Below, in pieces: positions 4,693 to 62,520 of a DNA stretch of 64,000 nt. Numbering within the stretch: position 1 is the stretch's first letter; each line of letters opens with the position of its first letter. Origin of the DNA: Isoetes taiwanensis (taxonomy: Eukaryota; Streptophyta; Lycopodiopsida; Isoetales; Isoetaceae); assembly GCA_021234155.1 (NCBI GenBank), contig JAJEKV010000011.1:8479132-8543131 (forward strand). The letters are read 5' to 3'. A program made the position numbers and the translations under genes. The notes under the pieces were generated by a model that had not been told where the DNA came from, did no database searches, and saw only the letters and a list, made by a program, of their open reading frames with translations.

Positions 4693-4870
4693 GTATGATA
4701 TCGGTACATTCTTATCTGCATGTGTATTATGATCTCTTGATAACCCATACACTATTGCACATGAGACCCTGTATGATATCGGTACATTCTTATCTGCATG
4801 TGTATTATGATCTCTTGATAACCCATACACTATTGCACATGAGACCCTGCATATGTATTATGACGTTTTG
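4693..4870 (+). repeat. 78-bp tandem duplication plus partial third copy
   Basis: The unit starting GTATGATATCGGTACATTC occurs at 4693 and again at 4771 with almost no change. A diverged partial third unit follows from about 4851. The period is divisible by three, which makes open frames on both strands repeat themselves; there is no sign that these are coding. Confidence 0.92.
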
Positions 4871-7977: not shown

Positions 7978-8262
7978 AAGGCCCCGAAGGGGCCAAAAAT
8001 TTTTTGGGTTAACACACAAACCATTATATTCAACACCCTAAAATTAAATCCCCCTTGAAACCCCCTTTGGTTTGGGTGCATATTCACACGGGGGTGACGT
8101 AGGGAGGCGTGAGAGCCCTCATAATTGTATTTTGCACGTAAATCAATACCATATAGTATTCCGCTTGAAATCTTATAGTATTTTGCGAATCTTATTATAC
8201 AGTATAGCAAATTTTGTACTTGCATACCCCACAAACGAGGAACTTTATGTGCTATCTTTGTT
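7978..8262 (+). mobile_element. MITE-like element with GC hairpin, copy 1
   Basis: It starts with GGCCCCGAAGGGGCC, a perfect GC hairpin, then AAAAATTTTTT and an AC-rich stretch. The block CCCCCTTTGGTTTGGGTGCA (continuing TATTCACACGG) and an inner region read in reverse (ATACCCCACAAACGAGG) follow. The same modules occur at 57920-58345 and 62124-62520. No coding capacity is present. The far end seems to lack the second inverted block, so this copy is probably truncated or rearranged. Confidence 0.7.
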
Positions 8263-10385
8263 TCTTATTTAAAAAATGAGTATATTGGCCACAAATGCCA
8301 AAAGCACATGGTAAATTAAATAGTTAAATGCTCTCAATGCATCAGCACATGAGGCGTCAACCCTTGTCACATCTTGCGATAATTTGCACATGAGACAATC
8401 ACATCTCTAACACACTTAGTCATGGTCTAATCTAATCTGAATGGGTGAGATTAAAGTTCCTAATGGTTCACAACCATGAAAACTATATGAATTGTACATT
8501 GTCAAGGATACAACTCAAGCATCACAATAAAATCATATTTCGATAATTATTTCACATGGGACTCCCATCCATATTTAGACATCCCACGTGGTACGATGAG
8601 ACTCATGCATTACCAACATGGAAACTGGATCAGTGATTCCGCCTCCGGAATGGAAAGCGGCATGATGATTCCGCTCAGCAGGTAATGAGAAGGTAAATTT
8701 TAAGCTGCGACCCAGTTAACATGTTGTGGCGGCACGAACCGGGTCGTTGATTCGGGACTCGCTCCAGCCTCACGGGTCGCGGGACTCCCCCGAATCCGCT
8801 TCCGCATTCCATATCCATACCGCCATACATAATGATAATAGAGAACAAACGAAATGGAGCAAGCACACAGAAAAAACCCTTTTTATTGCTCAAAGAGGAT
8901 ATAAGTACATGAGATGACGAGAATAGCGATAGACCTCCCTGAATTGGCATATGCCCACGGGCACATGGCTTCCACCGTTAGTTCAGAAATTGTAGGAGCC
9001 CTAATTGCAACCCGACAAAACAACAAAGGTATGTATAATTTGAAGAAATTATTAATTTTAATAATAATTATCAATAATTATCAATTTGAAGAAATTAATC
9101 GCCATGGATATAGTCGGATTTGAAGAAAGCCGTAGTAGTAAGAAATTGCTGCGGGGGCCCGGAAATCATTGTTGTGCAAGTCAGGCCTTCCAAAGGTGTA
9201 GAGCCGATCTTTCTATGCCTAAGGAGCCGATGCTAGGCTGGGCGAATTTCTCCCGAGGTCTACAATTCCGCCTATGGATGCTTTTCTACAAAAGTTAGTT
9301 TTCGGCTAACATCGCTAGCGAGATTGTGAGAGCTCAAAAGGATTCGATCCGCAAAGCTGGATCGAAGTTTAATCATGGTAGGTAAGTGCTATTCCCAATT
9401 TTTTACCCACTTCTGTTCTATGATTTTGTGAAGCAATCTGTTGCTCCTGTTTTTCTAGTCAAGGGTTTGTAGGACGGATTCCAATGTTGGCGATGGTATA
9501 TTTTCGGCTTGACCTCTCAAACATATTCCGCAGTGATCTGGTCGCACAACCTTTAGAAAATTGGGCGTTTTTCCAGCGGGGTTGCTTTTGCCAGACATAA
9601 GGATCATGCATTTATGATAAAATTTATAGGTTACTAATTTAGTTGGTTGAAATGTAACTGTGATCCCATTCTGCCAGATCAAGAGTAAAATGTTGGCAAT
9701 AGTGGTCATGGTGTGTAAGTTTCTTACCCATGGGATTCAATATTGTTTGCAAGTATGGGACATGTGCGTGCAATAAAAGGGTTTTTTTTACCATTTCGTA
9801 TCTGTATACTTACCATTAGGGGTTTTTTTCACTATTATCTGGGGCAAAATACATAGTTTAGAGGTTAAATTAACTTCCAAAGATCAGTATACTATGAATG
9901 TTTTTGGCCACCCTTCGAACACAGATGTCCATACCCCCTTATGACTAAGTGCATCCCCCAGGGTTTCTTACCATTCTCTTATTTCTTTAGATTTACAGTT
10001 CGGGTGTCTGAACCAATCTGATCTACTCATAACAACTCCCGCCAGCTTATTTCTTTTTGAAGCCTAGAATATTCGAGTTTGTGACCTAAACAAGATGGAT
10101 TAGCATGCCTTTAAAAAAAACCGTCGTTGCAACAAACATGAAATACTTAGAAGTTGAAAATTGGTAGGTGCTCTGTTATGTGTGCATCTGCATTGAAAGC
10201 TTGAACTTCATAAAGTTCAGCCATGCTGAATAAATTGGGTTCTAGTTGCTTCCAGAATGGGACGCCTCCTGCATGTGGATAAATTTCATTTGCAAATGGG
10301 ATTCATGGTGGACATAAGAATGCAGCTCTCTATGCGTTTGCACTCTTGTTATTAGTCCAGGAAGCCCGCATATATCAAGCGGGAT
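8263..10385. other. No gene recognised
   Basis: Mixed sequence with several short reading frames (for example 8914-9123 plus and 9455-9709 minus) but no domain I can name and no consistent exon chain. Confidence 0.45.
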
Positions 10386-13045
10386 ATGGTTATTGTGGCC
10401 AAAAAGTCGCGGATCAGCCTGACTCCATCCCCATTCAACCCATCATCCCGCTTTGATCTCCATAGGATCGCCCCTACCATGGCCCATTCATGGGTCAAGG
10501 ATGACAAAGCCCATGCATATGCCATGCTAAATTGTCATGCGTGCCTTGCGTTCATTTATGGGGCTCCCAACCGTAGCTACCGAATTCCCTATCAAGCATT
10601 TCTGTTGTATAGTGCAGCCCATTTTTTGTCCATGGACCCGCACTGGGTTGCTTGCCCACATTAACCAATTAATACATATTGACCGCAAGATAACCAATAT
10701 GGTCACATTAACCACTTGGTGACCACATTAACCACCAACTAACCATAGCCACATTAAGCACGGTCACATTAACCACATTTAGACATTGGCCACACCCACA
10801 AGGATAGTGATTTAATGTAGCCATAGGTTAAGTGGACATGGGTTAATGTGGTCATAGGTTATAGTGGTGAATGTGGCCATAGGTTAATGTGGCCATGGGT
10901 TTTTGTGATTAATGTGGATGTAGGTTAATGTGGTCACAAGTTAGTATGGTTAGTGTGGCCATGAGCTAATGTGGACATGGGTTAATGTGGACATAGGTTA
11001 ATATGGCCATAGGTTAATCTGGCCCTAGGGTTAATGTGGCCATAGGTTATAGTGGTTAGTGTGGCCATAAGTGGATGTTAGCTGTAGGTTAATGTGGCCA
11101 TATGGCCTTAGTATGGCCATGTGGACACAGGCGAATGTGGCCACATTAAGCACGGTCACATTAACCACATTTGGACATTGGATACACTAACCACAAGGGT
11201 AGTGGTTTAATGTGGCCATGGGTTTATGTGGACATGGGTTAATTTGGTCATACGTTTTAGTGGTTAGTGTGGCATGTGGCCATGTGGCTTTACTGTGGCC
11301 ATGTGGACATAGGTGAATGTGGCCACATTAAACATGGTCACATTAACCACATTTGAACATTGGCCACACTAACCACAAGGGTAGTGGTTTAATGTGGCCA
11401 TAGGTTAATGTGGACAACATCAACCTATGGCCATATTAACCTATGGCCACATTTACCATATTAACCCATGTCTACATTAAACCACTTCCCTGGTGGTTAG
11501 TGTGGCCAATGTGACCGTGGACCCAATAATCATCCATATCCACATTAACCTATGGCCACATCCACCTATGGCCACACTAACCACTATAACCTATGGCCAC
11601 ATTAATCCATGTTCACGTTAACCCATGACCACATTAAACTACTTTTTCCGGTGGTTAGTATGGCCAATGTCCATGTGGTTAATGTGACCGTGGACACAAT
11701 AATTACCAATGTCCACATTAACCTATGGCTCTATGGCCACATTAATATATGGCCACATAACCCATGTCCACATTAACCCATGGCCACATTAAACCACTTC
11801 CCTTGTGGTGTGGCCAATGTCCAAATGTGGTTAACGTGACCATGGACACAATAACCCCCTATGGCCACATTAACCTATGGCCCTATGGCCATATTGAACT
11901 TAACGTATGGCGACATTAACCTATGGCCACACTAACCACTATAACCTATTCATACTAACCCTATGGGGACTCTTGGCCACATTAACCTATGGTCACATTA
12001 ACCTATGGTCACATTAACCTATGGCCACACTAACCACTATAACCTATGGCCACATTAACCCATGTCCACATAAACTTGGCTTCATTAAACCATTACCCTT
12101 GTGGTTAGTGTGGCCAATCTCCAAATGTGGTTAGTGTGATCGTGGACTCAATCACCACATTGGCCCACATTCACCTATGGCCACATTAACCACTATAACC
12201 TATCCACACTAACCTTATGGACACATTAACCCCTTTACAACACATTCATGTATGGACATATTGATCACTTTACAATAGCCAGACTAGTAGCCACAATAGA
12301 CATATGGCCACATCCTTCATTCCCGAAGATGCCCATCGCACCACCCCCAAAACACATCTAGACCCAACGGCCGTCTTTCGCTTCTTCCCACACTCCACAA
12401 TGGAACTGGCCTAACCAATGTTTTTCCACTAGAAGTCCTCCACAATGGGTAGCCTAAGTGCAGCAACAGTGTTTAACGTGCAAGTGGTTAGTCTCTCCAA
12501 GTTCAAACTAAGTTCCCATAGTAGGAAATCGGCCTCCAGTGCAATCTACATACTACTAGCTATGGTCTCCATGATGCGGGCCATGGTGGCACGTATGCTA
12601 GCCTCAATTTTTGTAGTGGGGATCTTCCCCTCACCACTAGAACTTATGGCCACATTAACCACTAGTAAGCACCTACGACCAGATTAGGCACTATTTTGTG
12701 GCCAAATTAACCTATGGCGAGATTAACCTTGTGGATGGTCAGATTTACCTTGTGGACAAATTTACCACTGCCATTTATTGGCCATATTAACCACTTGGGC
12801 ACACGAGTTGCATTCACACAACTGCTCCTATAGGGTACAGGACCAGGGACAGAAAGTCTATTGCAACTTGCACTATACAACAGAAATGATTGAAGTGGGC
12901 ATTGGCAGCTACGATTGCAGGCCCCATTAATGAGTGAAGGGCATGCACCAATGTTTTCGCATGGCATATGCATGGGGTTTGATCAAGCGGGATGATGGGT
13001 TTGATGGGGATGGAGCTGGCTGATCACGGCTTTTGGCCACATGAA
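10386..13045. mobile_element. Foldback-like element: long imperfect inverted repeats around a satellite core
   Basis: The left arm (10386-10680) and the reverse complement of the right arm (about 12780-13045) align over about 260 bases with indels. Shared words include ATCCCCAT, CCCATCATCCCGCTT, CCCATGCATATGCCATGC and TTTCTGTTGTATAGTGCA. Between them lies a degenerate satellite (separate entry). Long inverted repeats with internally repetitive arms are typical of foldback transposons, but no transposase or clear target duplication was seen. An alternative is a palindrome formed by local inverted duplication. Confidence 0.65.
10650..12720. repeat. Degenerate satellite based on TTAATGTGGCCATAGG, strand-switching
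   Basis: Dozens of variants of GGCCATAGGTTAATGTGG occur, with spacing varying around 20-30 bases. From about 10800 to 11410 the plus strand mostly carries TTAATGTGGCCATAGG. From about 11415 to 12250 it mostly carries the complement, CCTATGGCCACATTAACC. The array is therefore itself a large imperfect palindrome centred near 11.41 kb. No coding frame is supported. Confidence 0.9.
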
Positions 13046-13611
13046 CCACTAGCTCAAATGAACACACTATTCTGCAACCTGTCTGGAGAACAGGTGCAGG
13101 GAACTGTGGACGAGATTGCCTCGTCCACCTCCTGTTGTGTAACCATTCTTGAAGGTGATGGTCCTCACTGGGATCAGATGAAGAGCTAGCAGCCCGTGGG
13201 CGCTTTGGGGTGTTCGAAGAGGGGCTGAGCCCCAATCGGCCTTGCAGGTTCAATCGAGCGCGACCGCGAGGAGATCGTTCCATTCGATCCATTCTTGACT
13301 TGCTGTAAGCAGAATCAACACTTGGTTAGAAAGGATCCAACACAATCTCGAAAAAACAAAGGAACAATCAGAAATGCCAGAAGAACGAATGCGAATGCTG
13401 GAAAATCGTGGGGTGCAACTTACCTGAAGCAATTTCCAATAGCACTAAGTTGAATGCCTCCTCTGTGCATTGCAATGGATCAATTGCCTCCATTTTATAG
13501 AGGGGAGGATTGAAGATGAAGTGATTGTCCAATCCTTCGAAAGATTTTTTTGAATTTGGCCATTAAATGGTCGGCACCTCAATTCCCAACTCCCCAATGT
13601 ACCTCGATTCT

Positions 13612-13693
13612 TAGGCAACTCCATCAATCTCCAATTTACAGCCCTAATCAACTAGGCAACTCCATCAATCTCCAATTTACAGCCCTAATCAAC
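13612..13693. repeat. 41-bp tandem duplication
   Basis: TAGGCAACTCCATCAATCTC and the following bases up to CCTAATCAAC occur twice in direct succession, starting at 13612 and 13653. The two copies look identical. The block lies downstream of the SEC5 stop codon in otherwise featureless sequence (13046-14387). Confidence 0.9.
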
Positions 13694-14387
13694 TTGTTTT
13701 GAGAAGTTGGCGGGCTAGGTCTAAATTAACCCTCGATTTCATGATGAAAGACGGTCGTGACAAGAAGGCATACCCGTGTGATGCCTGAGTTCTCATGATG
13801 CGTGCGAACATGTCCCCCTTATCAAGGTCTACTCGCACCCACTGACAAGCCCTAAACCTTTGCGACAGTCTATACCTATTGCAATACGTGGGTTTTGCCA
13901 CATATGTGGGAAGATGGCACCTTGCAAGGGGGCTCCTTGATCCCCCTTTGTTTGAGGCCCAAATTGGAGGTCGGAATGAGCCTTTTTTGCAGTAAAAACA
14001 AGCCCACATCATAGGTTATCTTGCCACGAATCAAGAACACACAACATTACCAAAATCCGTGATAAATTTGTGAGTAATTTGTAGTGGCGCCCCTTGGAGT
14101 GCACGAAAGGGGGCAACCATACCCTAGTGTAATAAATAACGATACGATCTAACAGTAGTAAAGACACAAATCTTATGTTCCAATTTTGTGGGCCACTGTT
14201 TAATAAAGTCACAGCAGTGCATTTTTTTGTGAAATTGTAAGATGCCAAAGTTGACTAAATTTAATTTCGTTCTGAATCCAGTAAAGAGCATTTGGAAGGT
14301 TTCAAGCATTATTTAGAGCATACAGGACTACGTTACAATTCCAATAATGTACAGAACAGTACATTGTACAAAAAATGATATGTTTGA

Positions 14388-14750: not shown

Positions 14751-17700
14751 CTGCAGAATGCCAAAGATCTAAGCACAAGTGCATAGAGAAAAGCTAGACA
14801 AAATCAATCAATGGGCAGGAAAATACAAATGCCTACATACACTTGCTGCCATTGATACAGTAAGTTGCAACAAAGGCATCGGGTAAGGTGGTTCAATTTA
14901 TAGTACTCTATTGAACCTAGGCATGTTAGCTTGGTGTTTGAAAATGAGGGCATCATTTTATATGCCTTTAGTCTTCTGACTTCAATCCCAAGTTTTGACA
15001 GATTGACAGATACTGTTAGATAAAGGATGGCACTTTAAGAATATTCTTGCCACTACTGTGAAACCTGTGGATTAAAATTAGTTTGTTTAATAAGCTAGCT
15101 TGTGCATGTAGTACAGCTGGCTAGAATTTTTATTTGTAGTACTATATTTGTTCCAGAGAAGGGTTTTCCTCGGAAAGTTCTAACTTTGACTGGGCAATTT
15201 GTCAGAACCAGGATCATTGTGGTTTTGTGAATTGAAAAACTTGGAACCTACTGACGGGATACACATAGATGAACGAGACGAGGTGAGGATCTTGTGGCTG
15301 CCAATTTGCAAGAGCTTGATACTAGCGCACTAGGAAGTGTTCGAACGATAGAGGTGCTTATTGGCAAGAGGGGGCTTTGGAAGGTCGCTAAATGCCTTAC
15401 TGATGCATGCATCAGGTACCCTATAGAGGGCTTCAGCCCAAAGTCTCGGATAGAACTTATTATAATCCTCTGGCATTAGCACGATGCAGTCCAGAATAAT
15501 CAAGGAAGATGGCTAGACATTGCTACATAGTTGGGCTTTATAGGAGAAACCATAGAGCATGAGAAGGCTGTGGGACAGAAGGTCGGACGGGCGCCAGAGG
15601 CACACGCAGAAGGGAAGAAAGAAAGAAACATCTAATAGTTGGCAATGGCACTTTGGAATTCTTAGTTCGTGTGCCTAGGCTATACGTATATACAGCCTTC
15701 ACACACAATCAGAGAAGATGAAATAAGAAAGGTGTTGACTCTGGAGCGGACTGAATTAGGGGAGGAGATCTATGACATGTTCTTTTAGTAGCTGCTGGAA
15801 AAGCAAAGCTTGCTTACCTTTAAAATGCATGTAGCATTCTGAAACCCAACATATTGGTTCATTGCTACATAGTTGGGCTTTATAGGAGAAACCATAGAGC
15901 ATGAGAAGGCTGTGGGACAGAAGGTCGGACGGGCGCCAGAGGCACACGCAGAAGGGAAGAAAGAAAGAAACATCTAATAGTTGGCAATGGCACTTTGGAA
16001 TTCTTAGTTCGTGTGCCTAGGCTATACGTATATACAGCCTGTTGAGTGGAGAAGATGATCTGAACAGCAGAACACTATAGAGAGAGGAGGAGACGCAGCA
16101 AATAACAAAGGAGAAGCAAGAAACTTGTGTATTACCCTAACTCATGAGATGTACATATATATATGTGCCACGTCCTCATGTTGGGTGGCAAATAGGGAAA
16201 AAGGTAAAGAATGGGGGGACCCATGGGCTAATATAAAATGTCCCATGGGGTACAACGTTAAGTTACAACGTTAAGTTACATGACTTAACATGTCCAAATA
16301 CATATCACATTATACTATTCTAACACTCCCCCTTAATGTGATATTCCAGACTCCTCACGCCAAGAGCCAACCTGAAATCTTCAAACTTGGCTTTTCCTAA
16401 TGGTTTTGTGAAAATATCTGCAATCTGATCTTCTGACCTGCAGTATTGGATATCAATTTCTCCATTCTCAACTTTTTCTCGTACAAAATGGTAGGTGGTC
16501 TCAATATGCTTGGTTCTGCCATGAAAAACAGGATTGTTTGCAATGCGTATGCTGCTCATATTATCGGTGAAAATGCAAGTGGGTCTGCTGTCATTGATCC
16601 CAATTTCTTCCATGAATTTTTGAATCCAAACGGATTCACATGCTGCAATGCTACAACCTTTATATTCTGCTTCAGCAGTGCTAATTGCAACAGTGCTTTG
16701 TCTCTTACTTTTCCAAGTTACAGCACCATTTCCAATTGAGAATGCATAACCACTCGTGGATCTTCTTGTGTCCACACAACCAGCCATATCGGAGTCTGTG
16801 TATCCAACTACATCAAGCTGACTATTTGATTCATACAAGATACCAAAATCATGTGTTCCCTTGATGTATCTCAGTACTCTCTTAGCAGCAATCCAATGTG
16901 TTTGAGTAGGATTAGCCAAAAATCTACTCAATACTCCTACCGCAAATGATATATCAGGTCTGGTCACAGTGAGATAGTTCAAGCTCCCTACTAATGCCCT
17001 GTAGAGTGTTGCATCAAATGATTTTGCACCTTTCTCATGAGCAGAAAGTTTAATGCCAACCTCCATTGGCGTAGAAGCTGGTTTAGCAGTCTCCATGTGG
17101 AATTTCCTTAGTAGATCTGCTGCATACTTTTTCTGACAAATAAAAATTCCATTGGCAGCCTTCTTCACTTCAATGCCCAAGAAGTAGTGTAACTCTCCAA
17201 GATTTGTCATGTCAAAGAACTCTCCAAATTGTTTTATCTCATGTTGAATCAACTTGAGAGAACTGCCCGTGACAATGAGATCATCGACATATACTACGAT
17301 CAAAGTAATGTCATCACCATCATGCTTAATATAGAGACTAGAATCTGCACTGCTCCTTACAAAGTTTTTGCTCAACAAATAACTATCAAGTTTGGAATAC
17401 CAAGCCCGAGATGACTGTTTTAGCCCATATAATGCTTTATTCAGTTTGCAAACAAGATCATTACCTTCGTGCTTGTATCCGGGTGGTTGCTCCAAATAGA
17501 CCAACTCCTTGAGCTCTCCGTTCAAGAAAGCGCTTTTCACATCAAGTTGATACAACTTCCATCCAAATTGAGCTGCAAGCTTATATGGATAACCTCACTG
17601 TTTCCATTTTGGCTACCGGAGCATAAGTGTCTAAGTAATCTTCCCCTTCTCTTTGAGCAAAACCTTTTGCCACCAGCCTGGTTTTGTGCCTTTGAACAGT

Positions 17701-20700
17701 CCCATCTGCATTATACTTTAGCTTATAGACCCATTTGCATCCAATGACATTTCTATCCTTTGGCCTTGGCACCAATTCCCATGTATTGTTAACTAGTATG
17801 GATTTATACTCCTCATCCATTGCGTCCTTCCATTCCTTAGAATGCCTAGCATCTTCAAATGAAATGGGTTCATAAATATTGACAAAATTGCATTGATGAG
17901 CTGCTGCACTTGCTTCGGACTCAATATTGCCTTGGCTTCTTGTAAATGGTCTTTGCGCCCAAGGTGCCACATGAGTAGTAGGGGCTGATTTTGCATTCAG
18001 CTGAGTTGCATCAGACTTTGTTGTTGGTTTTTCACCAACATCTTCTTTTGCTACTTCCTTACCAGCTCTTCTTTCATAGGTAAGCACTTTATCGGGCCAA
18101 ATCCTTGGTTGACATTGAGGCGTAACAGGCCTGTTTTGATCCGATGCTTCATGTTGCTGCCATTTAAGTGGAAATTCAAATATTTCCTCCTCTTGCTCTT
18201 GGTGATCAGTGACTGATATTGGACCTGCAGCGTTCTCATCAAACGTCACATCACGCGAGACAATTATTTTCTGCTTTGCAGGATCCCATAATCTGTAAGC
18301 CTTAGCCCTCAAACTATAGCCAAGCATTGTACAAACTCTTGCTTTGTCATCGAATTTCTTCCTGCCATCCTCCTTAAAGACATGCGCATAAGCTTTACAT
18401 CCAAATACACGCAAATGATTCACACCTGGCTCACACCTGGCTTTCTTTTGTAATAAACCTCATGTGGAGTCTTCCCATCTAAAATTCTTGTCCCCGCTCT
18501 ATTCAGCAAATACACTGCAGTGAGCACTGCTTCAGCCCAAAAACGATGCGGCATCTTCCATTGAGCCATTAGGCAATTTGCCATTTCGCAAATTGTCCTA
18601 TTGCGCCTTTCTACAACTCCGTTTTGTTGTGGAGAGCGAGGCGTTGTCAATTGCCTTTTGATCCCATTGTCTTCACAAAATTGTTCAAACTTTGTGGACA
18701 AAAATTCTCCTCCATTATCAGTCCTTAACGTGAGTATTTTCTGCCCTGTTTCAGATTCCACTTCTTCCTTGAAGGCTTTGAAATGATAAAAGGCCTCTGA
18801 TTTTGTTTTCAGAAAATAAACCCACATTCTTCTTGAGTAATCATCCACTAACAAGAAGAAATATAAGGATCCACCAATGGATTTTGTTGGCATAAAGCCG
18901 CAAAGGTCAGCATGCACTAATTCCAATGGTTTTTGCGCTCTATATTCAGATTCTTGAGGAAATGAAACCCTATGCTGTTTTCCAAGAACACAAGGCTCAC
19001 AAATCTGTTTTTCATCATGTATTTGAGGTAAACCATGCACATTTTCTTGCTGGGACAGCGTGCGCAAACTTCCATAACTGATATGGCCATACCTTTTATG
19101 CCAAATCTCTGATTGGCTGCTGCTACCTGCTACGATATTGGCCTGATTTTGGGCAGGGACAATCTCCATTTTATATAAATTGCCTTCTCTTCTTGCACGA
19201 GCAATCACCTTCATCTTTCTTATCATCTTCATGAATTCTTCACTTGGCTGAAAAATTATTGCTTCATCTTCATCAAAGAAAACTTTGAAGCCCTTACGAG
19301 TAATGCAAGCAACAGAAAGCAGATTCCTCTTTAAATCTGGTACAAGTTTGACATTTTGAAATGTCACAATAGCGTCTCCTTCTCCTTTCACTCTCACATT
19401 TCCATTCCCTTCTATTGCTAGCGAGGAATCATCTCCCAAAAGGATTTTGTCTCCATCATACTTTGTGAATTTTGAGAAAAGGGATTCATCACCTGTTACA
19501 TGAGTCGAGCAGCCACTATCCAAACAAGCAACGCACCTATCAGACTTGTATCTTACATGATCGACTTCATCTACGAACATTGCAAAATCTTGTGCAGCCG
19601 TAGGGGTTTTCTCCTTTGAGCTTGATGTCGACCCTTCTTCAAGGTAATGCGACTCCTTTTCAAGTTTCATTTTCAATATACTCTTCTTTAGAGGGCAATC
19701 ATTTACCATATGGCCAACTTCATCACAACAATAGCATTTGATATTTTTGTTGGAGTATGAACTCCAACGTTCGCCTCTCCCTCTATTCGTACGGCCTCTT
19801 TCATGGCCTCTTCCTCGTTGAGGTTCTCCTCGTTCTCCTCGTTGAGACTGATGAGATTGAGAATCAGTCTTGGCAGTACCTTCTTCTTGGTGTTGGAAAT
19901 TTCTCCGATTTCCTCGACCCCTACTCCCCCTACTTCTTGATTGTCTGAAATTTCTTCTTGATTGGCTGAAATTAACCTGCTCCGTTTGTTCCAAGATTTG
20001 TGATCTCAAAATTTTCTGCTGTAAGGCTGCTGCAAGCTCTTCGAAGCTAGGCTCACTCTCCCGTGCTTGAAAAGCATCAAGGAAGTGCTCATATTCAGGT
20101 GCTCCTTGATATATAGCATTTAGGAGCTCGGCCTCTTCGACTTCAACTCCAATAGAAGCCAATTGTGCAGCGATCTCTGTGATCTTCGCAATGAAGTCAC
20201 TCACATCTTTACATTCTCTTAGCTTTAGACTGTTAAGCTGATTTCTTAACAGCTGCTTCCTTGTATGATTCTTGGTCTCATAGATTTGCTGAAATCTGCG
20301 CCAAGCTTCACTAGCACTTTTCACTCCAAGTATGTGCCTTTGCATGGAATCATCCACTGCAAGTTTGATGAGCAGCAGGGCCTTTTTGTTCAACTCCTCC
20401 CATTTGTCATCTTCATTTTGGTCTTCACCAGCTACTACATCCCAAACTCCAGCAAGATCAAGTGCCAAAGTCATCTTCTCCTTCCAAATAGAGTAGTTCT
20501 TACCTTTAAGCAAGAACTTTTCATTCATGAACACCTTTTCCAGGCTGTCCATTGTAAAAAAAACACAAGCCTCTTCTAATCAAAGCCACAAATCTGCAAA
20601 CCCCTACTCTATCTTCAACATGCAAGGCAATATGCAAGCTGCTGCAAGAAATCTTTCAGATTTTACACTCAAGGGCTGCTTTTAGCTTGGTTACCGCTGC

Positions 20701-23700
20701 ATGCAACTCTCCATAACAGAAGAATGCTTAAGGATGCTTCTCTCTAGGCTCAAACAGAAGTTAGGGTTAAAATCTGCTCTGTTTTTCACAAGGCAGAAAA
20801 ACCTTCTCAAAGTACTTCCTCTCCTACACAGAATGAAGCTCCCAAGGATGGAACACCGCTCTGATACCAAATGTTGAGTGGAGAAGATGATCTGAACAGC
20901 AGAACACTATAGAGAGAGGAGGAGACGCAGCAAATAACAAAGGAGAAGCAAGAAACTTGTGTATTACCCTAACTCATGAGATGTACATATATATATGTGC
21001 CACGTCCTCATGTTGGGTGGCAAATAGGGAAAAAGGTAAAGAATGGGGGGACCCATGGGCTAATATAAAATGTCCCATGGGGTACAACGTTAAGTTACAA
21101 CGTTAAGTTACATGACTTAACATGTCCAAATACATATCACATTATACTATTCTAACACAGCCTTCACACACAATCAGAGAAGATGAAATAAGAAAGGTGT
21201 TGACTCTGGAGCGGACTGAATTAGGGGAGGAGATCTATGACATGTTCTTTTAGTAGCTGCTGGAAAAGCAAAGCTTGCTTACCTTTAAAATGCATGTAGC
21301 ATTCTGAAACCCAACATATTGGTTCATTGCTACATAGTTGGGCTTTATAGGAGAAACCATAGAGCATGAGAAGGCTGTGGGACAGAAGGTCGGACGGGCG
21401 CCAGAGGCACACGCAGAAGGGAAGAAAGAAAGAAACATCTAATAGTTGGCAATGGCACTTTGGAATTCTTAGTTCGTGTGCCTAGGCTATACGTATATAC
21501 AGCCTTCACACACAATCAGAGAAGATGAAATAAGAAAGGTGTTGACTCTGGAGCGGACTGAATTAGGGGAGGAGATCTATGACATGTTCTTTTAGTAGCT
21601 GCTGGAAAAGCAAAGCTTGCTTACCTTTAAAATGCATGTAGCATTCTGAAACCCAACATATTGGTTTACATTTATTAACAATCTTGTATGAGGAGTTTCT
21701 AAATCAGGCTCTATGAGGGCTTTGTACAAATTGTTCTTTTACTAGCTGCTGGAAAAGCAAAGCTTGCTTACCTTTAAAATGCATGTAGCGTACTGAAACC
21801 CAACAAATTGGTTTACATTTATTAACAATCTTGTATGAGGAGTTTCTAAATCAGGCTCTATGAGGGCTTTGTACATCGCATAAACCTGAAAAACATTTTG
21901 CTTTTCTGGTCATAATAGTTCGTGAGCTGCTTCCAAATTGTTGGACCACACTGATATCTTCCTCTTATGATGTAGTAGGCAGAGGAAAAGATAAAGAGAA
22001 ATCGGCATATTAGTTCTAGTGGTTTCTCAACTCTAACTACATACTCCTGCAGAAATCATTCGCTTTTGTTCAGTTCCCAGGTAAGGTCAATATCATGGAA
22101 CACTAAAATTTCTGCAAGTAAAAAGAAGCACAGTAGAATATACAAGAAAAGGCAGGCAGAAGATAGCATATGTGAAATATTTAAAACCCTAAACCTATTA
22201 AGCCCATACCTCTACATCGTCTGCTGTCATTTGTGCATTATATCTGTCGTCAAAGCCATCCTCACTTCCACGAGTTGGCCGGCGATTATGACCCATGTTC
22301 TCTATCGAATCGCCTAGCGACGCAAGCACTTTTCCAACAGAATTTCTTTTTACAGATTTGTTAGCTTCCTGGACGCCAGGTGTGGAATATACTTGAAGAA
22401 CAGTATTCAAGTATTCCAACTACAGAAACGAACAGGCTTAATTAAGTTCTCTGTATAAACTAATAACGAGATAGATAACAGTAGTAGACATTTTAGGTTG
22501 AACACCCACCTCAAGCATGAGCTGACAGTATCCATTAATATCCAAAGCATTTGTCTTGTGCTCGGTTAGGATTTTGAGCAATGAATCCATCAACCCTTCA
22601 GTCAAAACGCTGAGAACCTTCTGCAAGAATGGCTTGGCCCCTGCATACACCTTCAAAACAGGGAAGTAGATATTCAGTGCAACTGAAACTGCAATCAAGA
22701 AGCATAAAGAGACACATTAAAGGACATCCAGAGTAAAAACATACCTCTGCATGAACTTTCACCATTGGATACATCAACTCGATGACAGCATCACGTATGC
22801 CCTGCAAGCAGCACAAATGCATGTTTATCTGCACATTTCAGGAGCTTTGAAGCACTTATACAAGTCAAATTTTGCATTGCATTGTTTAAATCCTTATAAT
22901 ACTTGCTTGGTGGACCAACAATATGCAGCATCTGCTCAATGGTCCCAATGTCTTCTTCACGGCTCTTAGTGTAGAAGACCACAAGAGAATACCATTATCA
23001 AAATGTGTACATTAATGTTCTTAAGTCCCTCCCTCGTTCCTTTCTTGCTTGCTATACTAAAGCTCTATTTCAAGAAAGGCAAAGGGCAGTGCATAACTTC
23101 AATTTTATTCCCAGAACCTAGCTGTCTAACTCCACTTGGCATCCCTTAGAAAATCAAAGCGGGAAGGGAAAGATCCAAGTAAGAACTACACCTTGACAAT
23201 GAATGGTTGACAGCTCTAAATGGACCCCTAAGAGCAGCCTCAAATTCTCAAACCATCATCCTTCAATGGCGCTAATCAAGCAATGCAATAGAAAACCTTC
23301 AGACTCATGTTCATTACGTCCTTGAAGATGTTCAATCTCATAGGGATGGAGCCTAATTATTCATTAAGCCTAATAAGGGTACGAGCCCAGATATTATTTC
23401 AATAGTTCTCCAACATATTATCTTAGGGGATAGCTATTGCCCAAAATTAAGATGGAAGTTCAAAAATAAGTAAACTTCAGCTTACCTTTACTGGAGGAGC
23501 AGAACCCCACAAGGTGGGATCGTCCAAAATATAGGCAGTAGCAGCAGTTTCTATGACCACCGCCTAGATTTGCAAATAAAAACAGACATTTTGAAACAGA
23601 TGAGCTAGATCCCAATATCATGGGCAGAATCACCTGATCACACCTTTAAATTATTATAATGGTTGAGTGTTGTCAATTCCAAGGCTGATAAGGAACTCTC

Positions 23701-46734: not shown

Positions 46735-47715
46735 GCATAGTGCGGATAAAATGGATAGACATAATAGAACAGAATAGAATAGAATAGAATAGAATACAAT
46801 AAATTTTTTAGCGTCCACGGAGACCGATTGGCCTATGGGACCCAAACAAAAAAGAGAGCAGCAAGCGTATTACTCACAGGATTAAAAACCCCCGCCCCAA
46901 AGGGTTTTCGAGGGAAAAACCTTAGCAGTAATAAGTATGTTGGCACGCTGGACAATTGTATAGGACAGTTCAATACCGTCCCTGAGGACACAACTGAGTC
47001 CGTGCATCCATAACCTCCTGGAGGTATGACCCCAACAAACCCACTGACGCCGTAGTCAATAACTGATGCAACGGCTGGCCAGGCACTAGTAATCGAACAT
47101 ATCGCTCTCAGATATGGGCAAACACTGGGCAGATCTGGAGGGCATGACATTCATCCTCAATGGCGCCCTGGTGGCAACACTGGCAAAGCCTTTGCTCTCG
47201 TGCTTCCTGAGCCCAACGTCATGTTTCAATGTGGAGGCGATGTGCACCCGTGCGAATGGAAGCTATAAGTCTGCGCTTCTTCATGGGCAGCTGGGTGTAC
47301 AAGTACTGGTGTGGGCCTCTCGTGAGCCTAGGATTGACTTGCTGCTGATAGTGTGCCAGCTTAACGTGCGTCAGAGCATCTGCATCCCAGAGCTTGCAAA
47401 GGAAAGTAGCATCTAGGTACAGCTTAAGTGTCTTGTGATCTTTCTTTGTCCTTACATGTACGCATCTGTTTACCTGTACACCCCAGCGTGAGAACCACTA
47501 AGCTTGCTTGTCCTTCCAGCAGGATTTCAGGCGTTGGGGACCCATCGCCATGGCCAAAGCAAGGTTGGGCAAACGTGTATCAGCCATAGCGACCACCTTC
47601 TGGAAGTAAATGATATGGCATTCCAATGCAGCCCGTTGAAGGGGTAGAAAGCATGTCTCCTGGAGTAGGATCTGGTATGGAACTGTGGACTTCACCCCAA
47701 GGGCCCGTGCCAAGA
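46735..47715 (-). mobile_element. LINE, 5'-truncated copy
   Basis: It matches the last 900-odd bases of the LINE at 54080-56750 in reverse, including the 3' end with the AGACCGATTGG stem-loop and TTCTA-type tail at about 46755-46800. The 5' end stops abruptly at 47715, where copia C LTR sequence begins (GGTACCATCAACGG). The truncated RT end is not functional. Confidence 0.85.
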
Positions 47716-48114
47716 GGTACCATCAACGGCAAGCAACAAACCTCTTCTGGAACTCTTCCTTTATCCAATTTCCGGGTTGCACATACAACAACAGTTGATC
47801 CGGATTACACAACCAGCAACAGCTGTTCCGACGTGCACAAGCAACAGCTGCGAAACCTGCAACGGGATCCTCTCCTGCAAGCAAATCGATCAACAAGATC
47901 TTCCATAGAACTCTGTGTTCATATGACTGGAAACTGCCATTTACATCTCGCACTGTTCACGTCCTTGTTCTGCCTTTTTATTCTATCACCCTTCACCGAC
48001 ATGCACAAGCCTGACACGTGTTCTTCCAAAGCAAATTCCAACTTGCATAGGTCACTAGAAAATCATTATATGGCAATACCGTCCTTTCCAACTTACATAG
48101 TCACTAATAAACCA

Positions 48115-48480
48115 TTATATGGCATGATATATTAACACTTCATAATAGCTTACACCAAGTATTTCTTTGAATAGCACAAGCTTCCGTTCTGTCATGGATT
48201 TAGTGAATAAATCTGCCGCTTGATATGAAGTCTCCACATATTGCATGGCAATCTCATTTTTAGTAATAAGATCTCGTATGAAGTGAATATGTAGCTCAAT
48301 ATGCTTGGTTCTCTCGTGATGTACATGGTTTCTTGCTATAGCAATGCAACTTAAGCTATCAGTCAGGAGAATTGTAGGGTCAGTTTGAGATATACCTATT
48401 TCAATCAATAATCTCTTTACCCAAACAATTTCTTTTGCAGCTAGCGAGGATGCGGTATATTCTGCTTCTGCAGATGACAT
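48115..48480 (-). CDS. Copia C RNase H
   Basis: 121 residues: MSSAEAEYTASSLAAKEIVW, then LLTDSLSCIAIARNHVHHER and the KHIELHIHFIRD block typical of copia RNase H. Separated from the RT frame by a frame change near 48480-48590. Confidence 0.88.
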   Translation of the reverse strand: MSSAEAEYTASSLAAKEIVWVKRLLIEIGISQTDPTILLTDSLSCIAIARNHVHHERTKHIELHIHFIRDLITKNEIAMQYVETSYQAADLFTKSMTERKLVLFKEILGVSYYEVLIYHAI

Positions 48481-52353: not shown

Positions 52354-53199
52354 TGAAGAAAGATCAGAAACACTAAGCTCACAAAATCAATAGATCTTTA
52401 CCAGTCAAACTAAAACCGAGCTGCACTTCTTTTGAAATAAGAATAAATCTTGGGTTTCAATACATGAGCTGTGACAAAGTTTTAGAATCGACACTGCTGA
52501 GGTGTGAGCTGCGGCATCAATCAACACCTGCGTTTTCAACAGAAGGTCAAGGTACCATCAACGGCAAGCAACAAACCTCTTCTGGAACTCTTCCTTTATC
52601 CAATTTCCGGGTTGCACAAACAGCAACAGTTGATCCGGATTATACAACCAGCAACAGCTGATCCGAAGTGCACAAGCAATAGCTGCGGAACCTGCAGCGG
52701 GATCCTCTCCTACAAGCAAATCGATCAACAAGATCTTCCACAGAACTCTGTGTTCATCTGACCGGAAACTGCCCTTTACATCTCGCACTGGTCACGTCCT
52801 TGTTCTGCCTTTTTATTCTATCACCCTTCACCGACATGCACAAGCCTGATACCTGTTCTTCCAAAGCAAATTCCAACTTGCATAGGTCACTAGAAAATCA
52901 TTATATGGCAATACCGTCCTTTCCAACTTACATAGTCACTAATAAACCATTATATGGAATGATATATTAACATGGGTATTCATTTGTTTGCGAGCTCACA
53001 TGATCTTAGTCAAGCTTGTTGTAGGGGTATTGACGCAAAAAGGAAAATCCATTGTAAATGGTTCATGAAACATACAATGACCAAGTTTAGGGTCTAGGAC
53101 TTATGCGTTTGTACCGAGTTCAATGGTATGCTAAGACTTATGCATAAGCTCTATCCTTCTAACTTTATGTGTTTAATCAGTTTAAGAGAATAGAATAGA

Positions 53200-54079: not shown

Positions 54080-56750
54080 CCGGCCCCTGTTCATGCATCT
54101 CCATTGGCAGGCCCAGGTGCATCACGCCTCAACACAGGGTGCCCCATGCGCTGGACTACGACCGATGGGGACCTATGCCCGGACTACTTGAGCATGATCT
54201 GGCGGGACTGGCGCAACTCCCAACACTTCAAAGCAAGCACGCTTTCGGCTAACTCACACGCCCGGCCGGCTGCTGAAGATGCTTTGGGAGAGGCAGCTCG
54301 CAATGAACCTCGGGCACTACCACCTTCCCCCGTGAATGAGATGGTTTGATGATGAGTGTCGGGAGCTCAAATGCACACTCCGGCAAGTCACTGATCCCAC
54401 CTCCCGCCCACAGGCCGTCAGTCAATACCGCTCCTTTCTCAAGAACAAGAAGGCTAGATACCTCGCCGAGCATCAGCAACAGATGTTTCGTCTCCTGGAT
54501 CGGCACCCCAGGACATTCTGGAGAAGGATCTTGAGCAAGCACACTTGCGACCCACGGGGAACATCACCCCCGGAGCAATGGGTGCAGTACTTTTTGCTTG
54601 ACTTTACGACCTGCTCGGGGGCCGGACACCAGTCCCTCCACAGATAGGCGTGGCTCTGCTTATCACAGAGGGGGATGTCATCATGGGCCTGCAACGTCTA
54701 GCTAATGGGAAGGCAGCATATTTAGATGGCATGCATGCAGAACTTCTGAAATGGGCTGGGCCTCCACTGGTACCTGTCCTCACGACATTGTTCAATAAAG
54801 CATTGCGAGAAGGTTTCCCTCCGCAATGGACCACTAGTAGAGTTGTGCCCATATACAAAGGGGACCCTCAATGCCGACCAACTACCGCATACTATTATGG
54901 TCGACTCTCTCTCTTTGCAAAAGCTGTTGGTGGCATCCTTGGCGTGGTGACAATATGGGCGAGGAAAGCGGATATCGCGACTCTTACACAGGCGGGTTTC
55001 CGGCCCGACCACTCCACCATTGATCATATCTTCACTCTGCGCACATACATTGAAGATAGCGAGGAATCGCCCGCCGGGAACACGTATAGTTGTTTCGTGG
55101 ATTTTGCAAAAGCTTTTGACACAGTGCCCCATGACAAGCTATGGGACAGATTGCGGCAGCTGGGGACCCTCATTGACTTGCAGAATGCAGTATATAGGCT
55201 ATATGAGGCATGCTCAGGCCATATCACATCGTCAGCACAGTCGATAATCAGTAGCATTGGCGTGCGTCAGGGTTGCCCCCTCTCCCCCACAGTCTTTGGC
55301 CTATACATTGATCAACTGGAAGATTGGCTCTCTAAGCATGGAGGTGCGGGCGCACATCTTATGCATCACACAATCCAGCAACTCATATATGCTAACGATG
55401 TCAACCTCCTAGCCTATACTCCAGAGGACATGCAACGTCACCTGGTTTGCCAATTCACTGGCATGCGAGTTAACTTGGCCAAAACTAGGGTGCTGCTAGT
55501 TGCATCATCCCGTCAAGCCAAGGCTTCCCTTATTCACTTACCAGGGACAAGAGGTAGAGATAGCTCCGACCTACAAGTACTTGGGGATCGAGTTCTCAAC
55601 TACCACCCATTGGGATGCCGCCAGCAGGTTGCAGGTCACGGCGGGTTGGAAAGCACTATATGCCATGCAGAACAACGACCACAAAAGGGGAGTTGTATGT
55701 CTGGGGCCACCAGTCACACTTGTTTCGGGCCTTGGTCCAGCCTTTTGTATGGGGCAGAAGTGTGGGGTCCAGTGATATCCCTCAACACCTGGAATGACCT
55801 CGAGCAAGTGCAGAAGGCCTTCTTGGCACGGGCCCTGCGGGTGAAGTCCCCAGTTCCATACCAGATCCTACTCCAGGAGACAGGCTTTCTACCCTTCAAC
55901 GGGCTGCATTGGAACGCCATATCGTTTACTTCCAAAAGGTGGTCGCTATGGCTGATACACGCAGCTTGCCCCACCTTGCTTTGGCCCGCGGCGATGGGTC
56001 CCCAGCGCTTGAAATCCCTCTTGGAAGAACAAAGCAAGCTCGGTGTTTCTCCTTATTTGGGGTGTGCAGGCAAACAGATGCATCTAGGTTAGGACAAAGA
56101 AAGATCGCAAGGCACTTAAACTGTACCTAGATGCTACTTTCCTTCGCAAGCTCTGGGATGCAAATGCTCTAATGCACGTTAAGCTGGCACACTATCGGCG
56201 ACAAGTCAATCCTAGGCTCACAAGAGGCCCACACACCGATGCCTTGTACACCCGGTTGCCCATGAAGAAGCCTTGGACTTATAGCTTCCATTCGACGAAA
56301 GTGCACATTGCCTTCGCATTGAAGCAGGCGTTGGGCCGGAAGCACACGAGCAAAGGCTCTGCCAGTGTTGCCACCAGGGCGCCATTGAGGATGAATGTCA
56401 TGCCCTCCAGATCTGTCCAGCATTTGCCCATATCCGAGAGCGATATGTTCGATTACTAGTGCCTGGCCAACCGTTGCATCAGTTATTGACTACGGCGTCA
56501 GTGGGTTTGTTGGGGTCATACCTCCAGGAGCTTATAGATGCACGGACTCATTTGTGTCCTACGGGACGGTATTGAACTGTCCTATACAATTGTGCAGCGT
56601 GCCAGCATACTTATTACTGTTAAGGTTTTTCCCTCAAAAACCCTTCGGGGCGGGGGTTTTTTAATCCTGTCAGTAATACGCTTGCTGCTTGTTTGGGTCC
56701 CATAGGCCAATTGGTCTCTGTGGACGCTAAAAAATCTATTCTATTCTATT
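54080..56750 (+). mobile_element. LINE (non-LTR retrotransposon), inactive
   Basis: The element starts after AAGGACTCC and ends in a TTCTATTCTATTCT tail. The empty second unit of the surrounding repeat (near 53700-53725) defines the insertion point. Coding regions are broken: frames at 54061-54349, 54336-54647, 54650-56092 and a last one to about 56450. The 5' endonuclease part is missing, so it is 5'-truncated. The 3' end has a GGCCAATTGGTCT hairpin-like word. Confidence 0.88.
54650..56092 (+). pseudogene. LINE reverse transcriptase
   Basis: 480 residues. RT blocks in order: NGKAAYLDGMHAELLKW (normally A-G-P-D-G), AGFRPDHSTIDHIFTLR, CFVDFAKAFDTVPHDKLW, SIGVRQGCPLSPTVFGLYI and LIYANDVNLLAY. 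The catalytic YADD has become YAND. A frame change precedes the final part, which ends with a CCxx...H...C zinc-binding-like tail (near 56300-56430, other frame). It is a dead polymerase; the clade was not determined. Confidence 0.88.
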
Positions 56751-56764
56751 CTTCATAATTTCTA

Positions 56765-57919
56765 AATGCATTTGTAGAGAGAGAAGGCTAGTGTAATCTT
56801 GCATAGGGTATATATACAATCTTGTTGTAAAGATGAATCAAGGTGGCAAACACTATCATTACATCAAAAGTCCTGTTTTTAAAATGGCGAAGATGTTAGA
56901 ATGATTCTCTAAAACCCAAAAAGGCATGTGGAGTTGGGCAACATCGTCGTAATGGATAGTCAACTGAATGTCAATCGTTGGATCACTATAAGCTTGAGAG
57001 GCAGTGTGTATAAACTTGAGGGGAGGCACAAATTTATATGCAAAATTGGTATCTAAAAGGTGCTTATGTTGGGCCACATAATAGACTATTTATTTATAAT
57101 GATCGTGAATGTTCATATAACTACTATATACAGTTAACTACTACGGATTGAGTCTCGGGTTTGGGGTGCATGACCTTAAGTCTACAAATTCAAAATGCCA
57201 TTAATGCAGCTCTCACATCAAAAACACTTTTTTTTTATCCAAAATATGTGCTCTTTGGATAGCTTTTGTAATGTCAAAAGCAATCAACTACGAGATTAAA
57301 CATCACTTTGTAAAACAGCTTCATCAAATGTTTGGGCTTCGCACATACAACTTTTTTTTCCACATAGTTTTAGGTTATAAGACAAAGCAAGTACAAAATA
57401 ATTGCATATGGAGCCACATTATAATAGTTGAATACAGAAAAGAGCAAGAGAAAACAAAAACCTGAAAAGCCAGCCTCCTGTGTTTATATAATAGTAAACA
57501 ATCTTGCAACCTAAAATTCTATAATGTAGAGAACTTCGTTATCTTGAAAGTTTATTACAAAATAAAAGCATGAAAAATGATAATCATAAGGAGGCAACTA
57601 ATTTTCATATAAGCATACGAAATGGGGAAATATGAAGTATGAAACCAATTCAAATAGGAATAACTAAATCAAAGTAAAAAAAATAACAAAGCCATCTAGC
57701 TATTCCAGTTTCAAAGTTGTTATTAAATGCCTACATCTTACCAACTTCAAAGTTGTTATTAAATGCCTACATGATATCAACTTCAATCTAAACCTAGCAT
57801 AAGCCCATTTTTCATGTGCAAAATATTATATGCATCAAACGGTAGATATAACAAAGAATTGAAGATTTCAATTGCCAGATTGAATAGCAGCAGCAAAGGA
57901 TCCTGTCCAGGTTTCATGT
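56765..57919. other. No gene recognised
   Basis: AT-rich sequence. A 40-base segment (TTCAAAGTTGTTATTAAATG and following) is duplicated at 57710-57730 and 57752-57770. Nothing else is supported. Confidence 0.5.
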
Positions 57920-58345
57920 AAAATCCCCCTTAAACCCCCTTTGGTTTGGGTGCATATTCACACGGAGGGTTACTCCGGGCAACGAGAGCTGTCGGATGGG
58001 CATATTTGCCCTTTATTCCAAGATCTGGACCGTACATAGCGATCCTCGTTTGTGGGGTATGCATGTACAAGTTTTTGTATACTGTATATTAAAGTTTGCA
58101 AAATACTATAAGATTTGAGAGAATGTACTTAATGGTGTTAATTTTGTACATACATTGTAAATATATTTTTGGGGCTCTCGCTGTCCTACGTAACCCCCCG
58201 TGTGAATATGCACCCAAACCAAAGGGGGTTTAAGGGGGATTTTAATTTAAATGTGTTAAATGTAATAGTTTATATTAATAATGTTAATGATAGTTGTGTG
58301 TTGATTATTATATTAAAAAAAAAATTTGGGCCCTTCGGGCCCTAA
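57920..58345 (-). mobile_element. MITE-like element with GC hairpin, copy 2 (both inverted blocks)
   Basis: Inverted blocks of about 50 bases, AAAATCCCCCTTAAACCCCC to TATTCACACGG and its reverse, bound 57920-58243. An AT-rich arm and the hairpin GGGCCCTTCGGGCCC (58329-58343) follow on the right. The inner region contains CCTCGTTTGTGGGGTATGCA, shared with the copies at 8.0 and 62.1 kb. No coding capacity. Confidence 0.78.
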
Positions 58346-62123: not shown

Positions 62124-62520
62124 TAAGGCCCGAAGGGGCCAAAAATTTTTTTTTGCAACACAAACCATTAACATCCAGCATATAAAAATTAAATTCCCCA
62201 ACACATAACAACCATTGACATTAACAACCAACACATAACTACCATTGACATTAATTAACACAACCATTGGGCCCAACACATTTAAATTAAAATCCCCCTT
62301 AAACCCCCTTTGGTTTGGGTGCATATTCACAGGGGGATGGACGTAGAACAGAGAGCTGTTGGATAGGCATATTCACCCCTTATTCCTTAATCTACACCGT
62401 ATGTAAAGTTCCTCGTTTGTGGGGTATGCAAGTACAAAATTTGCTATACTGTATAACAAGATTCGCAAAATACTATAAGATTCCAAGCGGAATACTATAT
62501 GGTGTTGATTTCGTACAAAG
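62124..62520 (+). mobile_element. MITE-like element with GC hairpin, copy 3
   Basis: Begins with AAGGCCCGAAGGGGCC and a run of T. Then comes an ACACAACCATT-rich arm, the block CCCCCTTTGGTTTGGGTGCA at about 62304-62323, and the inner region CCTCGTTTGTGGGGTATGCA to ATACTATATGGTGTTGATTT. It matches copies 1 and 2 module by module. The second inverted block is missing, as in copy 1. Confidence 0.72.

Follow-up and report, generated by a model that had tools for sequence, protein, structure and literature searches.

The question raised by this locus of Isoetes taiwanensis was whether a palindromic block of about 2.7 kb is a mobile element or a repeat array that became folded in place. The window, i.e. 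the whole stretch of DNA analyzed, was 64 kb long with 40.7% G+C and no N. By local alignment, the inverted arms of the block were located at 10387-10638 (252 bp, plus strand) and 12840-13048 (209 bp, minus strand), and the ends of the block were refined to 10387 and 13048. In total, 169 of 196 aligned columns were identical, and the score was 136 compared to a maximum of 37 after 500 dinucleotide shuffles of one arm, confirming the inverted arms of about 260 bases that an earlier note on this DNA had described. The arm identity of 86% refers to aligned columns with gaps not counted; the one gap, of 46 bp, corresponded to a stretch found in the left arm only (10454-10499, plus strand). The left arm, which forms the outer domain of a long terminal inverted repeat, started with TGGTTATTGTGGCCAAAA, and the outer tip of the right arm was TGGTTCATGTGGCCAAAA on the minus strand. 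The outer tips of the arms read TGGTTNNTGTGGCCAAAA. When the 64-kb window was compared with itself by blastn (E 1e-5), the block matched only itself over 10387-13048, and no second copy of the arm or of the satellite between the arms was detected in the window.

The whole block was found to form one imperfect giant palindrome, as had been proposed, with unequal halves of 1028 and 1634 bp. Alignment of the halves in inverted orientation scored 845, compared to 312 for the same-strand control and 208 for the best of 30 other window slices. Cheap gap extension inflated the identities in these alignments (774/879, and 666/801 for the same-strand control), so that only the contrast in score is meaningful. 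The predicted single-strand fold of the block had an energy of -1263 kcal/mol compared to -805 +/- 16 kcal/mol for 8 shuffles, with a z-score of -28 that is approximate, being based on 8 shuffles only and on RNA rather than DNA energies. The fold energies of ten other window slices ranged from -526 to -886 kcal/mol. Among the 931 predicted pairs, 200 spanned more than 1500 nt, 259 spanned 500-1500 nt and 344 spanned less than 200 nt. The helices were nested from the tips inwards, with 58 pairs from 10387:13048, 116 from 10502:12985 and 135 from 10762:12141, followed by inner helices of 54 pairs from 10967:11791, 106 from 11154:11689 and 53 from 11357:11512. The earlier note had held that a lack of inverted symmetry would speak against its reading; symmetry was found in the arm alignment, the alignment of the halves and the folding.

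About 2.2 kb inside the arms consisted mostly of a 16-bp unit, GGTTAATGTGGCCATA, mainly on the plus strand before approximately 11.413 kb and mainly on the minus strand after it. With at least 13 of 16 positions matching, 63 units were counted within 10380-13060 and none in the rest of the window, in agreement with the satellite of about 2 kb reported between the arms. This count was filter-dependent and fell to 61 when opposite-strand units were barred from overlapping. Looser cut-offs let in chance matches outside the block, giving 75 units inside and 10 outside at 12/16 or better, and 86 inside and 53 outside at 11/16 or better, while none of the 61,180 positions outside the block reached 14/16. 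Non-overlapping units of at least 11/16 numbered 81 in total. The left satellite array (10640-11413) was mainly plus-strand with minus-strand blocks, and the left half held 21 plus and 12 minus units; the right array (11414-12300) was mainly minus-strand, and 6 plus and 39 minus units were counted in the right half. The remaining three were in the arms. The satellite had been said to flip strand near 11.41 kb. The main strand switch was indeed there, but it was not the only one, since 14 switches were found within the arrays and 17 when the three arm units were included.

Unit coverage was 67% of 10640-12300, 4.7% of 12301-12640 and 59% of 12641-12830, the last being an outer satellite remnant on the minus strand. 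The 340-bp stretch in the right half (12301-12640), almost without units and without a Pfam match above cut-off, is either a remnant of a middle domain or a later insertion. The description of arms enclosing the satellite needs two corrections: this part of the right half was nearly unit-free, and the arm tips were themselves unit copies. The positions of the unit had decayed unequally, from 1 mismatch at position 9 (T) to 37 at position 16 (A) over the 81 units, and none of 5000 permutations was as uneven. This pattern hints at a motif that was partly constrained during array growth; it could also reflect the common descent of the copies, or 25-bp variants that had to be fitted to the 16-bp frame.

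The anatomy of the block was that of a foldback element, with long inverted arms, short tandem repeats within, unequal halves, unit-like tips, hardly any middle and no recognised protein. The long inverted repeats made up most of the block and contained tandem short repeats, to which the 63 units of at least 13/16 belong; in each repeat, a non-repetitive arm lay on the outside and an array of the 16-bp unit, partly organised in higher-order blocks, on the inside. We consider it probable that the block is an old, presumably once mobile copy of a DNA transposon of the foldback type that was non-autonomous. Both outer tips were unit copies matching at 14/16 (10388 on the plus strand and 13032 on the minus strand). 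The 200-250 bp of arm interior were not unit-built, with one further unit match of 11/16 at 12888 in the right arm. Since the tips reach 14/16 and no position in the rest of the window does, the repeats appear to have arisen from the ends of the element itself. In such a transposon, the unit would serve as the recognition site of a transposase or a companion DNA-binding protein supplied in trans, and its multiplication along both inverted repeats would have improved recognition and pairing of the ends. Once the inverted layout existed, the arrays may have grown and shrunk by slippage or unequal exchange, most clearly in the left half. Some sequence might also have been exchanged between the halves, with strand switches arising at short inner palindromes.

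Part of the unit, GTGGCCA, overlaps with its own reverse complement. The perfect palindrome TGTGGCCACA sits on two strand switches, at 11136 and 11318. Exact inner hairpins of the form AACCAC-loop-GTGGTT occurred at 11189, 11371 and 11480, and a central hairpin with 57-nt arms, 89% complementary, around a 42-nt loop lay at the main strand flip (11357-11512). Given the self-overlap of GTGGCCA and the positions of TGTGGCCACA, strand switching could be driven by the repeat itself, which is one of the points in favor of a non-mobile origin. According to this explanation, a short tandem array was made palindromic by a local inverted duplication and later decayed where it stood; the duplication would have come about at self-complementary motifs, by template switching or by breakage-fusion. 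Such a duplication by itself does not predict unit copies at both tips, outside a 200-250-bp arm that is not built of units, and we regard it as rather unlikely. The same overlap would allow the orientation to flip at a unit copy, so that the 16-bp unit might be a self-propagating strand-switching motif whose orientation flips at its copies during replication or repair. We put this forward as a speculation that is unlikely to hold. If it were true, the array would build nested palindromes, and a short end of a transposon would have grown into a hairpin of nearly full length.

A higher-order block of about 95 bp was present in 7 copies; the left half held 3 of them and the right half 4. The left copies were on the plus strand (10748-10842, 11140-11237 and 11322-11419), and the second and third of them held the inner hairpin AACCAC-AAGGGTA-GTGGTT. 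The right copies were on the minus strand (11450-11535, partly deleted, 11605-11705, 11757-11857 and 12055-12158). Pairwise identities were 0.894-0.915 among the left copies (3 pairs), 0.755-0.848 among the right copies (6 pairs) and 0.727-0.851 between left and right copies (12 pairs). These identities showed that the left copies form a group and that the right copies are no nearer to each other than to the left ones. In a tree without support values, the halves were parted by a branch of 0.099. Two stretches of 51-52 nt shared by the two halves were 96% alike, above the identity of the arms; both were chosen among the 25 longest in a set of 245 inverted pairs. Because of these stretches, and because the right copies were no closer together, separate histories of the two halves are not established. 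The left half was likely amplified recently, judging from its repeat copies, and sequence exchange between the halves may have occurred.

It is by shape that foldback elements are defined, and they have been assigned to more than one transposon superfamily (PMC4079207, PMC3169594). Because this shape arose in different superfamilies, it does not by itself name a superfamily for the block. For Mutator-like elements, one survey gives inverted repeats of at least 100 bp with at least 80% similarity and a target-site duplication of 9-11 bp in which no more than 2 positions differ (PMC3310237). The arms of the block, 252 and 209 bp at 86%, exceeded that length and similarity. A duplication of 9-11 bp, even with 2 mismatches allowed, was not detected at their ends. 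No target-site duplication of the kind expected of a foldback transposon was detected there either, as the best flank match was equalled in 953 of 1000 random placements. No flank match of 8-11 bp with up to 2 mismatches was found near the arm ends, and a wider scan for 8-11-bp matches with at most 2 mismatches gave 1 match (8 bp, 2 mismatches) compared to a null mean of 8.8. Two short end matches considered as a target-site duplication were rejected, being pieces of the unit-like tips. The right flank shared only 8 bp with the arms.

A perfect 12-bp direct repeat, ATCAAGCGGGAT, was found at 10374-10385, just outside the left arm, and at 12982-12993, in the right arm beside the 46-bp arm gap. 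Only 3 of 4000 random window pieces did equally well. This pair came from word searches, and the duplication scans had stopped short of 12982. We rejected it as a duplication flanking 10386-12981, because placing the right end there would cost the right arm its outer 67 bp, which mostly match the left arm. Given an arm word in the left flank, the left end of the block may be rearranged. A target-site duplication could have disappeared with the age of the copy or through rearrangement of the left end. A local inverted duplication would also fit the absence of a target-site duplication at the arm ends, the single copy in the 64-kb window and the recurrence of the arm word in the left flank. The foldback transposon of the earlier note was thus borne out in its anatomy, but as a transposon it is plausible and unproven, with no target-site duplication and no second copy in the window.

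Seventeen stop-to-stop frames of 50 aa or more overlap the block; none of them reached the Pfam cut-off, and neither a mudrA-like nor any other transposase domain was detected in them. Sixteen of the 17 matched nothing in Pfam at E values of 0.1 or below. The exception, a zinc knuckle in frame 12300-12449, had an E value of 0.049 and 13.9 bits against a cut-off of 22, and was taken as a chance match. A captured gene fragment or transposase remnant was rejected, since no Pfam cut-off was reached in these frames.

Transposon ends can bear short repeats in both orientations, as known for En/Spm. The block could accordingly belong to a larger or autonomous transposon, as a fragment such as a repeat-rich CACTA, hAT or Mutator-like end that was folded by rearrangement. 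The nearly unit-free stretch 12301-12640 in the right half would fit this origin, and plant Mutator-like elements with multiple inverted repeats exist (PMC3310237). However, the block is closed by arms that match each other at its two extremes, none of the 17 overlapping frames carried a transposase domain, and by eye the arm ends are not CACTA. We therefore consider a folded piece of a larger transposon very unlikely.

Outside the right arm, on the minus strand of 13060-13510, signals resembling a putative gene start were read by eye, with a TATA-like CTATAAAATGG followed by CAG/GTAAGT and TTACAG splice-like signals. Frame 12930-13325 had no Pfam match. An intron of this putative minus-strand gene might contain the block, and the start of the gene could allow transcription through the block. 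This would agree with a long-hairpin RNA locus whose main function is to feed 21-24-nt small RNAs that silence related elements, and the predicted fold, at -1263 kcal/mol far below its 8 shuffles, points in the same direction. A precedent is Mu killer of maize, for which a hairpin RNA of about 4 kb made by read-through from a flanking gene was proposed (PMC3440606). On the other hand, an Rfam search of the window gave no match at gathering scores, and the arms were just 86% identical in aligned columns. As the main function of the block, a hairpin RNA is thus extremely unlikely. The block is a possible source of small RNAs according to its predicted fold, and a hairpin-RNA role may coexist with a foldback transposon.

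Other repeats were observed in the window. Four window frames had copia-type retrotransposon domains (Retrotran_gag_2, RVT_2 and others; Pfam). One copia-type element on the minus strand (15518-21666) had gag, integrase and RVT_2 matches, and its end repeats shared pieces of 287-349 bp at 100% identity and were themselves internally duplicated; from its sequence it looks like a recent insertion. An inverted pair (46786-47715 and 55821-56752) aligned over 945 columns at 88.7%, and enclosed a copia-type element with repeats at 47715-48137 and 52550-52972 as well as a frame (54602-56089) with a match to the reverse-transcriptase domain RVT_1 (E 3.3e-20). Three related short repeats were found at 8009-8250, 57919-58310 and 62222-62517, the second with inverted ends (57919-57989 and 58174-58244) of 91.5%; these are perhaps a miniature inverted-repeat family. 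Two-copy tandem duplications were present at 4693-4849 (78 bp, 100%), 13612-13694 (41 bp, 100%) and 21585-21875 (147 bp, 97%). A Sec5 (exocyst) match was below the Pfam cut-off (E 0.00085, 18.1 compared to 22.7 bits), and so was a protein-kinase fragment. Together with the copia-type domains, these matches are consistent with land-plant DNA.

Among the known systems compared, the block appears close in design to Tm1, Tetris and Galileo, with Tm1 the nearest of the three. In Tm1, a Mutator/Foldback element of root-knot nematodes, the inverted repeats likewise consist mostly of 13-15-bp tandem motifs in variable number, and the number of repeats is unequal between the two ends (PMC3169594). Features of Tm1 that were not found in the block are target-site duplications of 9 bp, end motifs of 7 bp that are asymmetric, and a group of copies with a putative transposase (PMC3169594). 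The sequence of its motif also differs from the unit of the block. Tetris of Drosophila virilis resembles the block in its modular inverted repeats of up to 1735 bp without apparent coding capacity, and in the sequence that its inner repeats have in common with the outermost domain (PMC4079207). The inner repeats of Tetris TIR-220 were proposed to derive from the element's own outer domain (PMC4079207). However, the Tetris repeat is about 220 bp, and 8-10-bp target-site duplications and several copies are described (PMC4079207). Galileo, of the P superfamily in Drosophila, also has long, internally repetitive inverted repeats whose repeat number can differ between ends (PMC3573991), and these repeats carry sites for the THAP domain of the transposase (PMC3688188). 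Its repeats are about 210 bp in the F group of D. mojavensis, compared to 16 bp for the unit of the block, and transposase-bearing copies are described.

Among plants, Tnr8 of rice and SoFT of Solanaceae are foldback families with long palindromic or modular ends; like FARE1, they were likened to the block by their general description and not by their repeat unit. FARE1 of Arabidopsis and MuTAnT of Medicago are also plant elements with long palindromic or modular ends (PMC4486113). In contrast to the block, 90% of MuTAnT elements are 200-300 bp long, and their mean inverted repeat is 47 bp (PMC4486113).

Relatives of the block were sought in prokaryote and virus collections, with exact patterns for IMG/VR and GTDB, and the negative results are correspondingly weak. 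A 21-base unit pattern, present twice in the window itself, had no exact match in IMG/VR, and a 25-base unit pattern, present once in the window, had none in GTDB genomes. Neither IMG/VR nor GTDB contained an exact match to an arm pattern, and blastn with the whole block gave nothing in plasmid or phage collections. Four forms of the unit sequence were not found in open-access full text, where sequences are seldom printed as running text. Support for calling the element undescribed, as the earlier note had done, reaches as far as these collections and texts, in which no relative appeared. The kind of element is known, and the family may be unnamed.

The locus keeps the unit, the higher-order block and the unit-like tips within 2.7 kb, and because it unites them it can help to order the steps by which giant inverted repeats form. 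If the unit were a strand-switching motif, the element would document the growth of foldback inverted repeats. If the block is transcribed, the locus would be a strong candidate for a hairpin RNA. If dispersed copies exist in the host, the old foldback transposon that we favor would represent a plant family built on a 16-bp unit, for which we came across no name.
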